Shown: positions 8,155-59,836 of the stretch, in pieces
Layout: every line of letters starts with the position of its first letter
How positions within the stretch are numbered: position 1 is the stretch's first letter
Source: a bacterium
Lineage (GTDB): Bacteria; Zhuqueibacterota; Zhuqueibacteria; Residuimicrobiales; Oceaniaggregativiventaceae
Reading direction: 5' to 3'
Assembly: GCA_029565675.1 (NCBI GenBank)
Contig: JAKQNP010000002.1
Span: 372,001 to 436,000 of the forward strand
Length of the DNA: 64,000 nucleotides
The notes under the pieces: model-generated
The model's input: the letters and a program-made list of their open reading frames with translations, nothing else
The model's database searches: none
What the model was told of the DNA's origin: nothing
Translations under genes and position numbers: made by a program

Positions 8155-8796
8155 CTACAATACAAAACCAGCCAAAAACCTGTAGTGGTTTTGTTTGATT
8201 GTCAGTATGTTATCCAAATCATGATGGGCAAAATTGTTCAATCCAAACCAGGATTCAAAAATAATAAAGACATGGTTGTTCATCTTGTAATCGGCTCTGA
8301 GTGAGATACTGTAAGAATATTTTTTAAAAAAGTACATGACATCATACTCTTCCCATGATCGTTGCGTATCTGGTGGATCAACTATTCTACCATATGCGCA
8401 AGTTGTTGCTTTTAAATGACGACTGTATTTTAAACCGGTACCCAATCTTATGTTGTCATATCCATAAAGAAGAAAAAAACCACCATCGATCGCATCGATC
8501 CAGTATTTATCTTTATAGCCATTTGGTTCTTCGGCGCTTATGCCGCCAAATCGATTGTACCCTATAAAAGGAACAATTGATAGATCTTTCACCGTATCGA
8601 TATTATATATACATTTAAAATTGTAAGTCAAAGAAAAACGAGTCCGATCGGCCTGTTTGGATTCAGCTTTCCAAAAAAGTTGATTGTGCCCTGCACCCAA
8701 CTCCATTCCCAATCCTTCAAACGACTGCGAATGGAGAATTGAAGATCCAGATAACATAAAAAAGGCGATTGTGATTATTTTATGTTTAAAAACCAT
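8155..8796 (-). CDS. Outer-membrane beta-barrel protein
   Basis: 213 aa from the ATG at 8796, where a signal peptide begins (MVFKHKIITIAFFMLSGSS, cut after HSQ). It is followed by many amphipathic strands with aromatic girdle residues (GMELGAGHNQLFW, YNFKCIYNID, GGFFLLYGYDNIRLGTGLKYS, YSYSISLRADYKMNNHVF). It ends in FLAGFVL, a typical barrel terminus. The frame is open 28 codons further upstream but without a signal peptide. The DNA is AT-rich compared with flanking genes. Function unknown. Confidence 0.65.
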   Translation of the reverse strand: MVFKHKIITIAFFMLSGSSILHSQSFEGLGMELGAGHNQLFWKAESKQADRTRFSLTYNFKCIYNIDTVKDLSIVPFIGYNRFGGISAEEPNGYKDKYWIDAIDGGFFLLYGYDNIRLGTGLKYSRHLKATTCAYGRIVDPPDTQRSWEEYDVMYFFKKYSYSISLRADYKMNNHVFIIFESWFGLNNFAHHDLDNILTIKQNHYRFLAGFVL

Positions 8797-8951
8797 CTGA
8801 GAATTTACCGTTTCCTTTCGCCCGGTTCTCTTGAAGGCAATCGACTTGACAAAATAGTAAGAGAACAGGTGGGAAAGCAAGTTGATGCTGCTCGATCAAT
8901 CCGAACGCTTCTTGTCCTTCGCACCCTTTGTCATCAATGAATTATGCCGGT

Positions 8952-9170
8952 TTAAGCCATCGGCTTTTAAAAAAAGAAATAATGTCGGTAATCTGTGGGA
9001 ATCGAACTCTTTTTAAAAGCCTCCGGCTTTTAAAAAAATAAATAATGTCGGTAATCTGTGGGAATCGAACTCCCTTTAAAAGCCATCGGCTTTTAAAAAA
9101 AGAAATAATGTCGGTAATCTGTGGGAATCGAACTCCCTTTAAAAGCCTCCGGCTTTTAAAAAAAATAAAT
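8952..9170 (-). repeat. 63-bp tandem array of tRNA-Sec 3'-end copies and hairpins
   Basis: Hairpins AAAAGCC-(TCC or ATC)-GGCTTTT start at 8952 (imperfect), 9015, 9078 and 9141, exactly 63 bp apart. Between them, at 8981, 9044 and 9107, lie three copies of a segment that matches the T-loop and 3' acceptor end of the adjacent tRNA-Sec, with about four to five changes in 28 nt. The tRNA's own 3' end at 9171 is the fourth member. On the minus strand each unit reads tRNA tail, T-rich stretch, hairpin. The 5' parts of the tRNA are absent from the copies, so they cannot be functional tRNAs. Confidence 0.9.
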
Positions 9171-9172
9171 AA

Positions 9173-9268
9173 TGGCGGGAATGTGTGGGAATCGAACCCA
9201 CCCGAGGCGTTTTGCGCCTCACAACGGTTTTGAAGACCGCGGGCCCCACCAGGCAGCCATCCATTCCC
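9173..9268 (-). tRNA. selC: Selenocysteine tRNA, anticodon UCA
   Basis: 96 nt including an encoded CCA. The 5' GGGAATG pairs with the 3' CATTCCC, followed by discriminator G and CCA. The anticodon stem CGGT/ACCG closes loop CTTCAAA, giving anticodon UCA, which reads UGA. A long variable arm with stem GAGGCG/CGCCTC and a 5-bp T stem (GTGGG/CCCAC) with TTCGATT loop are typical of bacterial tRNA-Sec. The D arm has GCCTGGTGG as in other bacterial selC genes, and its stem appears to hold one mismatch. The gene implies the organism makes selenoproteins. No selA, selB or selD lies in the window. Confidence 0.95.
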
Positions 9269-9840
9269 GAGTAATAGAAAAATACAAAAAAGCTTAAAGG
9301 GATGCAACAGCAAACTGCTGCTGCCGTGTCCGCCCGCTGTCGGTTCATGGTAAACTCCTCCGGTCGCCTTGCTTCTGCCTGGATGAAATTTGGCGCTGTT
9401 GTTGCAGAAATTGGAGCTCATGCTGCCCCCGTTTGTAATACCTGTGATTTTCCTTGCGCTGTATCGGGATTATTTTTACTTTTTATTCAGCATTCCTTTC
9501 AAAAAAGGAGCCGATCGATTTATCAACTTGCGAACGGTTCAACCCTGCTTTGCTGGCCAGCCATGCGCAAAAGGATGGTTTTGGTTGCGAAATTTAACCT
9601 CGGAGAAAGGAGGAATGCTTGAAAGAGTGACGGGCTTCATTTCCTCGCCTTCTGAATGTGCAAATCCCACAGACAAATGGCCGGCGACATATTTCGCGGC
9701 CCTTCTCTTCTCATCCCATGCTTATTGCTTCTCCATCTTTTAATTCCCGTTGATCTGTTTTGAAACGTTCGATGCCTTTAATGGCCGAAACCAGCCCTAC
9801 CGGTATTTCTTTATAATTTGCAGGAAATCAAAGAAAGGAG
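9269..9840. other. Gene-free stretch
   Basis: About 570 bp between tRNA-Sec and the sialidase-like gene. Open frames of about 100 codons on the plus strand (9302-9622, 9390-9743) lack ribosome sites, signal peptides and recognisable domains, so I do not call them. The promoter of tRNA-Sec should lie just right of 9268. I could not identify it. Confidence 0.5.
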
Positions 9841-57718: not shown

Positions 57719-59836
57719 TTATTTCAACAACACCATCTTGCGCCGCTGGCAGAATTTGCCGGTGCGAAGTTCATACCCATAGATTCCGCTGGCCAATCCA
57801 GCCGCAGAGGCATTCCAGACAACCCGGTGTACTCCGGCGGCCTGTTTTTCGTTTACGAGTTCAAAGACGGTTTTGCCCAACAGATCCGTTATTTTGAGCT
57901 GTACGTGTGCCGGCTCGAACAGGCGATATTCGAATCGGGTGGTTGGGTTGAAGGGATTGGGGTAATTCTGCCGCAGTTCGAATTCCGGCATTGCGGGTTG
58001 CGCGTTTTCCGCCACCTTGCTGATCAGGTCGTTGCGCAAAAGAAAAAGTCCGGTTTCGCGGTCGGCCACCATAACGAGATCACCGTCGACGGCCACCCCA
58101 TGGGCGAAGCCCGGGGTGTCGAAGAATCCCACTTCTTGCGGCGCGGCCGGGTTGCTGACATCGACGACGCGCACACCCCGACTGTAATCGGCGACATACG
58201 CATAGCCGCCGTCGACAGCCACATCGTAGGCCATGCCCGGTGTGTCGACGAACCCGACTTCTTGCGGCGCAGCCGGGTTGCTGATATCGACCACGCGAAG
58301 TCCCTGATCGTAATCGGCGATATAGGCGAAATTGCCGTTGACCGCCAGCCCATAAGCAAGACCAGGGGTGTCAAAGAATCCCACCTCTTGCGGCGCGGAC
58401 GGGTTGCTGATATCGATGACGCGCATGCCGGTGTTGTAATCCGCCACATAGGCATATCGGCCGCTGACCGCCACCCCATAGGCCCAGCCCGGCGTATCGC
58501 ACTGCCCCACCAGTTGCGGAGCGGCCGGATTGCTGACGTCGATGAGGAGCAAGCCTGAATTCCAGACCGTCAGACAGGCAATGTTGCCGCTGATCGCCAC
58601 GTCAGTGGCGATCGGGTTCGAAAATAAACCCAATTTTTGCGGTGCAGCCGGGTTGTTGACATCGATCAGGTGCATACCCGTGAACTCGGCGGCCGCGTAG
58701 GCGATGTTGCCGCTCACCGCCACCGAATAGAGCAATCCTGTGGTCGCGCAAAACCCCTTTTCCTGCGGCAGAGCCGGATTGCTGATGTCGAGAATGCGAA
58801 TCCCTTTGCCGTAATCCACCAGATAGGCAAAATCACCGCTCACCGCCACATCATAGGTATCGTTCGGGGTATCCACATGGACGATCTCCTGTGGCGCTGT
58901 GGGCGTGCTGATATCGATGATGCGCATGCCCATACCCCAATCGGCCAGATAAAGCGTGCTGTCGCTGACTTCGACATCGCGCGTCGCTCCCGATGTCTCG
59001 AAATAACCCGCCTCCTGCGGAGCGGCCGGGTCGCTGACATCGATCACGCGCATGCCGGCGCTTAAATCCGCCACATAAGCATAATGGTCGCGGACCTTTA
59101 CCCCATAAGCCCAACCCGGCGTATCGCAATGCCCCACCAGCTTCGGTGCGGCCGGGTCGCCGACGTCGACCACCTGCAGACCGGATTCATAGTCCGCCAA
59201 ATAGGCGCGATCGCCGCTTACCGCGATGCCAAAGACCTTTCCCGGTGAATCCCAGCAACCTTTTTCTTGCGGTGCAGTGGGATCGCTGATGTCGACCACC
59301 ACCATGCCCGAATCGTCAGCTGCCAGATAGGCCAGATTGCCGCTCAGGGTCAAGCCGACAACGGACGACATGGGAAAAAACGCCGTCTCTTTGCAATCGT
59401 CAGGATCGTTGACATCGATCACCCGCATGCCCTCACCGTCGGCGATGTAGCAATAGTCGTCGCTGACGGCAACGCTGTAGGCGTACCCCGGCGTATTGAA
59501 TGAGCCGGTCTGCCGCGGCGCCGCCGGATTGCTGACGTCGATCACAGACAACCCGAAGGTGCCGTTTACGACATAAGCCGTGTTGCCGTCGATCGCGATT
59601 CCCTCCACCAATCCCGGTGTCATGATCTGGCCGAGCATTTGCGGCGCTGCAGGATTTTGCACGGAAAAAATCTGCAAATAGCCGCCGCTGCTGCGGTAGA
59701 CTTTTTGCCCGTCCAGCGCCACTGCCATACACGGCCCATAGGCCCAGCGGCTGACAAGCGTCACGTTTTGCGATTGGCCGAACAAAGCGGATAGAGCGAC
59801 AAGCAAGAGCATGAACAGATTTCGGATTCTTTGCAT
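57719..59836 (-). CDS. LVIVD-repeat T9SS cargo protein
   Basis: 705 aa with GCGGAGG before the ATG and a signal peptide (MQRIRNLFMLLLVALSALFGQ). A dozen or more repeats of about 42 residues share the consensus GxAYGVAVSGxYAYVADYxxGMRVIDISNPAAPQEVG, the LVIVD repeat that builds beta-propellers. They are very alike also at DNA level. The tail is LRQNYPNPFNP, LKITDLLGKTV, ASGIYGYEL, RRKMVLLK. It is a surface protein of unknown function. The gene ends 89 bp upstream of the Tat-exported reductase gene, on the same strand. Confidence 0.9.
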   Translation of the reverse strand: MQRIRNLFMLLLVALSALFGQSQNVTLVSRWAYGPCMAVALDGQKVYRSSGGYLQIFSVQNPAAPQMLGQIMTPGLVEGIAIDGNTAYVVNGTFGLSVIDVSNPAAPRQTGSFNTPGYAYSVAVSDDYCYIADGEGMRVIDVNDPDDCKETAFFPMSSVVGLTLSGNLAYLAADDSGMVVVDISDPTAPQEKGCWDSPGKVFGIAVSGDRAYLADYESGLQVVDVGDPAAPKLVGHCDTPGWAYGVKVRDHYAYVADLSAGMRVIDVSDPAAPQEAGYFETSGATRDVEVSDSTLYLADWGMGMRIIDISTPTAPQEIVHVDTPNDTYDVAVSGDFAYLVDYGKGIRILDISNPALPQEKGFCATTGLLYSVAVSGNIAYAAAEFTGMHLIDVNNPAAPQKLGLFSNPIATDVAISGNIACLTVWNSGLLLIDVSNPAAPQLVGQCDTPGWAYGVAVSGRYAYVADYNTGMRVIDISNPSAPQEVGFFDTPGLAYGLAVNGNFAYIADYDQGLRVVDISNPAAPQEVGFVDTPGMAYDVAVDGGYAYVADYSRGVRVVDVSNPAAPQEVGFFDTPGFAHGVAVDGDLVMVADRETGLFLLRNDLISKVAENAQPAMPEFELRQNYPNPFNPTTRFEYRLFEPAHVQLKITDLLGKTVFELVNEKQAAGVHRVVWNASAAGLASGIYGYELRTGKFCQRRKMVLLK

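Follow-up and report, generated by a model that had tools for sequence, protein, structure and literature searches.

The tRNA-Sec gene and the segment repeated behind it

The analysed stretch of DNA (hereafter the window) is 64,000 nucleotides long and carries on its minus strand the sole tRNA-Sec gene (selC) of this bacterium. ARAGORN calls the gene at 9173-9268 (-), with an encoded CCA and the GCCA end at 9173. SelB, scoring above its family cut-off, is encoded in the genome as well, which makes it likely that the selenocysteine system is in use. Behind selC and on the same strand, three further copies of the segment running from the T-loop through a hairpin follow head to tail down to ~ 8949, and the next gene beyond the array is ORF 8155-8880. 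The features of the locus are as follows.

9277..9316, minus strand: 40-bp element upstream of selC, probably a promoter, with ~ 85% identity at the same position in congener G001
9177..9268, minus strand: tRNA-Sec gene (selC), RF01852 at 73.2 bits (Rfam gathering score 47), ARAGORN tRNA-SeC, anticodon tca
9133..9196, minus strand: unit u0 (64 bp), running from the T-loop through the CCA of the genuine tRNA and including a T-rich stretch, a hairpin and the junction AAAGGGAG
9138..9160, minus strand: hairpin 1 (UUUAAAAGCC-GGA-GGCUUUUAAA), ~ -8.8 kcal/mol, genome-unique motif
9070..9132, minus strand: unit u1, a diverged copy of 63 bp with GAT as hairpin loop
9075..9097, minus strand: hairpin 2 (loop GAT), ~ -8.8 kcal/mol
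9007..9069, minus strand: unit u2, a diverged copy of 63 bp with GGA as hairpin loop and AAAAAGAG as junction
9012..9034, minus strand: hairpin 3 (loop GGA), ~ -8.8 kcal/mol
~ 8949..9006, minus strand: unit u3, truncated, diverged copy with its hairpin cut short (GGCTTAAACC)
8949..8971, minus strand: hairpin 4, truncated, ~ -4.8 kcal/mol

Downstream of the CCA of selC come, in this order, TTATTTATTTTTTTT, the hairpin AAAAGCCGGAGGCTTTT, the junction AAAGGGAG and then TTCGATTCCCAC again, which is the second T-loop. The presence of extra copies of the selC 3' end behind the real gene, claimed in an earlier note on this DNA, was confirmed with Rfam, ARAGORN, TRF and alignment. The units start (TTCG) at 9196, 9132, 9069 and 9006; hence the exact 63-bp spacing that had been reported holds for the last two steps but not for the first one, which measures 64 bp because a run of T8 stands against T7. 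The array is ~ 245 bp long, and in each unit the tRNA part is followed by 40 bp of T-rich spacer and hairpin. TRF describes the region 8954-9197 both with a period of 63 (3.9 copies, 91% matches, score 402) and with a period of 126 (1.9 copies, 94% matches, score 446). Another 126-bp tandem array, probably coding, is found at 58083-58536 of the window with 3.6 copies at 74%; the period that it shares with the selC dimers is presumably a coincidence.

Across the 24 nt derived from the tRNA, units u1 to u3 do not differ from each other but carry three substitutions relative to the gene, at the same sites (CACAC to CACAG, ATTC to ATTA and CGCC to CGAC), the terminal CCA being ACA in all three. 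In the canonical register of the T-stem, u1 and u2 have each lost two of the five pairs, and u3, which displays no local T-arm hairpin, has lost three. Each of the three copies matches the 22-nt tRNA end at 19/22 while the best match in shuffles of the 300 nt downstream (n = 2000) is 16/22, so that, given the fixed spacing as well, a chance origin is excluded. Since the substitutions are shared, it is an already diverged copy that was amplified, as the earlier note had proposed. The variants also alternate along the array: u0 and u2 combine spacer A with loop GGA, u1 and u3 spacer C with loop GAT. This points to an additional 126-bp dimer step or to conversion. The units thus derive from selC and adjoin it head to tail, in the orientation of the gene and with a common set of fixed differences.

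An assembly artefact inflating the copy number would be conceivable in a draft genome of 64 contigs, but the units differ mutually and the array of ~ 245 bp lies deep inside a 749-kb contig, which makes this highly improbable.

The hairpins have the form AAAAGCC-(GGA or GAT)-GGCTTTT, complete in three cases and cut short in the fourth (AAAAGCCGATGGCTTAAACC). The only whole-genome occurrences of the motif AAAAGCCNNNGGCTTTT are the three complete hairpins of the array. The RNA fold of the array is more stable than that of shuffled sequences (z = -5.5), a value for which the four repeated hairpins alone suffice.

Occurrence of the repeat in this genome, in relatives and in other collections

Among the 42 tRNA genes found in the genome, each examined over up to 1.5 kb downstream, only selC has its 3' end repeated behind it (19/22, the others reaching at most 15/22). 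When the unit was searched in this genome and in 19 relatives, strong matches were obtained only at the selC locus, the unit being absent from the relatives. This supports derivation from selC itself. Given that strong matches and the complete hairpin motif are both confined to the array, the unit is not a dispersed repeat family.

The selC locus of the window was next compared with those of 29 relatives (30 loci in total, that of congener G001 being unreadable downstream). No copy of the selC 3' end rises above background in the 28 readable relatives' loci, where the best match is 18/32 compared to 22/32 here. Alignment with the selC of related genomes, the check put forward earlier, thus yields no comparable array in the readable loci. 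In G001 (G001:C251; L153, L020) the selC contig stops exactly at GCCA, as if the assembly had failed there, hence sharing of the array by this congener cannot be judged. A search with the neighbouring protein for the other side of the congener's selC gave no match in four relatives, so this side could not be placed. In several relatives a hairpin or terminator is found immediately after selC, at the same place; the repeated segment is accordingly the stretch in which the selC transcription unit naturally ends.

A wider scan for three-copy T-loop arrays gave none in the 81 other genomes of the phylum (82 scanned, including that of the window). The plasmids searched show no match to the array and the viral contigs searched none to the diverged unit, phages matching the tRNA itself only. 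The same three-copy scan of viral contigs returned 73 stretches, which were rejected as similar arrays: those with a similar unit are without tRNA and the rest are tRNA clusters or weak matches. In three related viral tRNA clusters (L066 5505-5567, L067 1072-1134 and L068 3800-3862) an orphan T-arm GGTGGGTTCGATTCCCACGC lies ~ 50 bp or less past tRNA-Lys. At 411-507, MT838886.1 (L183) contains a complete tRNA-Sec gene followed by a terminator-like hairpin. This record, unverified, 4.8 kb long and labelled 'Bacteriophage sp.', comes from human faeces; either a phage carries selC here or a bacterial contig was misassigned.

Across the 84,980 species genomes of GTDB, a collection that may omit records very near the genome of the window, two selC-type T-arms 47-77 bp apart were found at six loci, none of them at selC and none an array. 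Two (L060 and L063) are ordinary tRNA clusters. At the other four, in unrelated genomes, a tRNA gene has its own 3' part repeated once behind it (L061 Cys, L062 Met, L064 Thr and L065 Met). The same holds for a tRNA-Lys gene in G010, a relative of the same order: at L056 (G010:C54:16925-16998) a tRNA 3' half follows the intact gene and a truncated tRNA 5' part precedes it, so that pieces of tRNA flank it on either side. These single copies indicate that the first step of such arrays recurs.

Origin and possible roles of the array

The earlier note had considered the copies as attachment-site remnants of elements that entered at selC, later multiplied by slippage; in this reading the elements would have used the selC 3' end as attB and left partial copies there. 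selC is indeed a classical integration site in enterobacteria, and three of the seven tyrosine integrases of the genome adjoin other tRNA genes. However, the nearest integrase to selC on its contig, in a genome-wide search made with Pfam PF00589 only, is 149 kb away, and none of ten neighbouring ORFs contains an integrase domain. Moreover, the repeat does not stop at the tRNA end but takes in the 40 bp of spacer and hairpin as well; with copies 63 bp apart no element lies between them, CCA has been lost, and neither the plasmids nor, for the diverged unit, the viral contigs gave a match. With the integrase so distant and no foreign DNA between the units, we regard such remnants as decidedly unlikely. 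The three integrases near tRNA genes (G000:C3:457-933, C39:14086-14571 and C63:75987-76454, at 117, 580 and 667 bp from tRNA genes for Arg, Pro and Ala respectively) mark probable tRNA-targeted elements.

The array is most readily read as a tandem duplication that took in the 3'-terminal part of the selC transcription unit, comparable to the tRNA-linked repeats of E. coli, and we consider this explanation likely. The first step would have been one 63/64-bp duplication, comprising T-loop, CCA, T-rich spacer and hairpin, through slippage or unequal recombination. The extra copy, freed of tRNA constraint, would then have lost CCA and T-stem pairing, and the diverged copy may subsequently have been amplified, partly as 126-bp dimers, with homogenisation. 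This process is reconstructed from sequence only, and a point against it is that the dimeric arrangement requires either conversion or more than one event. Any read-through RNA would contain as many as four weak hairpins, presumably trimmed off during tRNA maturation, and at most the array might aid the stop of transcription ahead of ORF 8155-8880.

A stronger version of that last role, in which the repeated hairpins would stop transcription of selC (and from the opposite side) better than one, was also examined. The complete hairpins form stable AAAAGCC/GGCUUUU stems of 9-10 bp and sit where relatives have terminators. Nevertheless, with a terminator defined as a stem that has at least five U among the eight nucleotides behind it, no site passes in either direction while 1.1 are expected by chance, as each stem is followed by four U and then AAA. 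Terminator function is weak for this reason, though a partial stop may occur, and the multi-terminator suggested earlier appears unlikely. The suggestion of tRNA-like tails binding processing enzymes fared no better: a mimic of the T-arm combines a paired T-stem with CCA, whereas here two or three of the five pairs are broken and every copy ends in ACA. Mimicry is unlikely given this degradation. Taken together, the multi-terminator, tRNA-mimic and integration-remnant readings are weakly supported.

Alternatively, the trailer could be processed into a functional small RNA whose hairpins bind a regulator or other RNAs. One analogue of a processed trailer RNA is 3'ETS-leuZ. Others are rrA, rrB and rrF of E. 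coli, which bind Hfq and CsrA, and the layout, with repeats on the transcribed strand right after a tRNA gene, is that of E. coli RttR and of the rRNA-linked repeats (PMC8144298). The strong fold described above is in keeping with such an RNA. On the other hand, the copies have lost CCA and T-stem pairing, u3 is devoid of a local T-arm hairpin, nothing comparable is seen in relatives, and tRNA-linked repeats were without known function before that study (PMC8144298). The decay of the copies and the lack of a counterpart in relatives leave no sign of conserved function, so a functional RNA of this kind is rather unlikely. More specifically, read-through from selC processed to a hairpin-repeat small RNA might tune selC expression or the selenocysteine machinery, which we would call a long shot.

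Finally, 63 bp correspond to 21 codons and the array could encode a basic repeat peptide, like Tpr in E. coli tyrT. One frame per strand is open through all units (ORF 8942-9421 on the minus strand, 159 aa), but this ORF extends across the tRNA gene and is without Pfam match, and its variable sites change the amino acid (R/W, S/Y and G/R). As no open frame is interrupted when the length of the repeated unit is a multiple of three, ORF 8942-9421 is a by-product and a coding array is scarcely credible. Judging from decay and lack of conservation, the duplicated selC end is now probably a passenger trailer without essential function.

Comparison with known repeats behind stable RNA genes

Since 1978, 22 tRNA-linked repeats (TLRs) have been described at ten E. 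coli loci, a TLR being defined by a stretch of 18-19 bp in which it is identical with the 3' end of the preceding RNA gene (PMC8144298). Transcription with processing to a small RNA is documented for only some of them. As in the type case, tyrT-tyrV (178 bp x 3.14; RttR RNA and Tpr ORF), the selC array lies directly downstream of a tRNA gene on the same strand, and in both the tRNA 3' end recurs three times head to tail beyond the gene at constant spacing. Indeed, in E. coli K-12 tyrV (NC_000913.3), AATCCTTCCCCCACCACCA, an exact 19 nt of tRNA-Tyr, recurs three times at 178 bp, and RttR and Tpr are annotated over the first tyrT/tyrV repeat of that record. In contrast, the spacing of the selC array is 63 bp, its repeated tRNA segment, 24 nt beginning in the T-loop, is longer but non-identical (three changes, CCA lost), each unit includes the hairpin that follows the gene, the gene is that of tRNA-Sec and the host is not an enterobacterium. 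The location and the presence of the upstream gene's 3' end in the repeat (22-24 nt per copy, 19/22) are thus those of a TLR. The 18-19 identical bp are not found, as there are three substitutions in 24 nt and CCA is changed to ACA, hence the array is not a strict member but a shorter, decayed variant.

In the rRNA-linked repeats rrA, rrB and rrF the 3' end of the upstream stable RNA gene is likewise repeated, once and between two terminators (PMC8144298). Unlike the selC array they have one copy, 150-bp spacing and strong terminators, and their transcription and binding to Hfq and CsrA have been shown (PMC8144298). The single duplications at L056, L061, L062, L064 and L065 resemble the array in that the 3' part of a tRNA recurs behind that same tRNA, but they consist of one copy, with neither an array nor a shared hairpin unit. 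The attL/attR duplications at tRNA-integrated elements also contain a tRNA 3' end copy; the selC array differs from them by several copies at 63 bp, no element between these and no integrase nearby. Partial tRNA 3' copies behind a tRNA therefore do not by themselves prove past integration.

While tRNA-linked repeats have so far been described from E. coli, the selC array represents an independent case with decayed copies in an unrelated genome. It suggests that a simple duplication of the stretch where a stable-RNA transcription unit ends can be enough to give rise to a TLR, with no need for a selected function.
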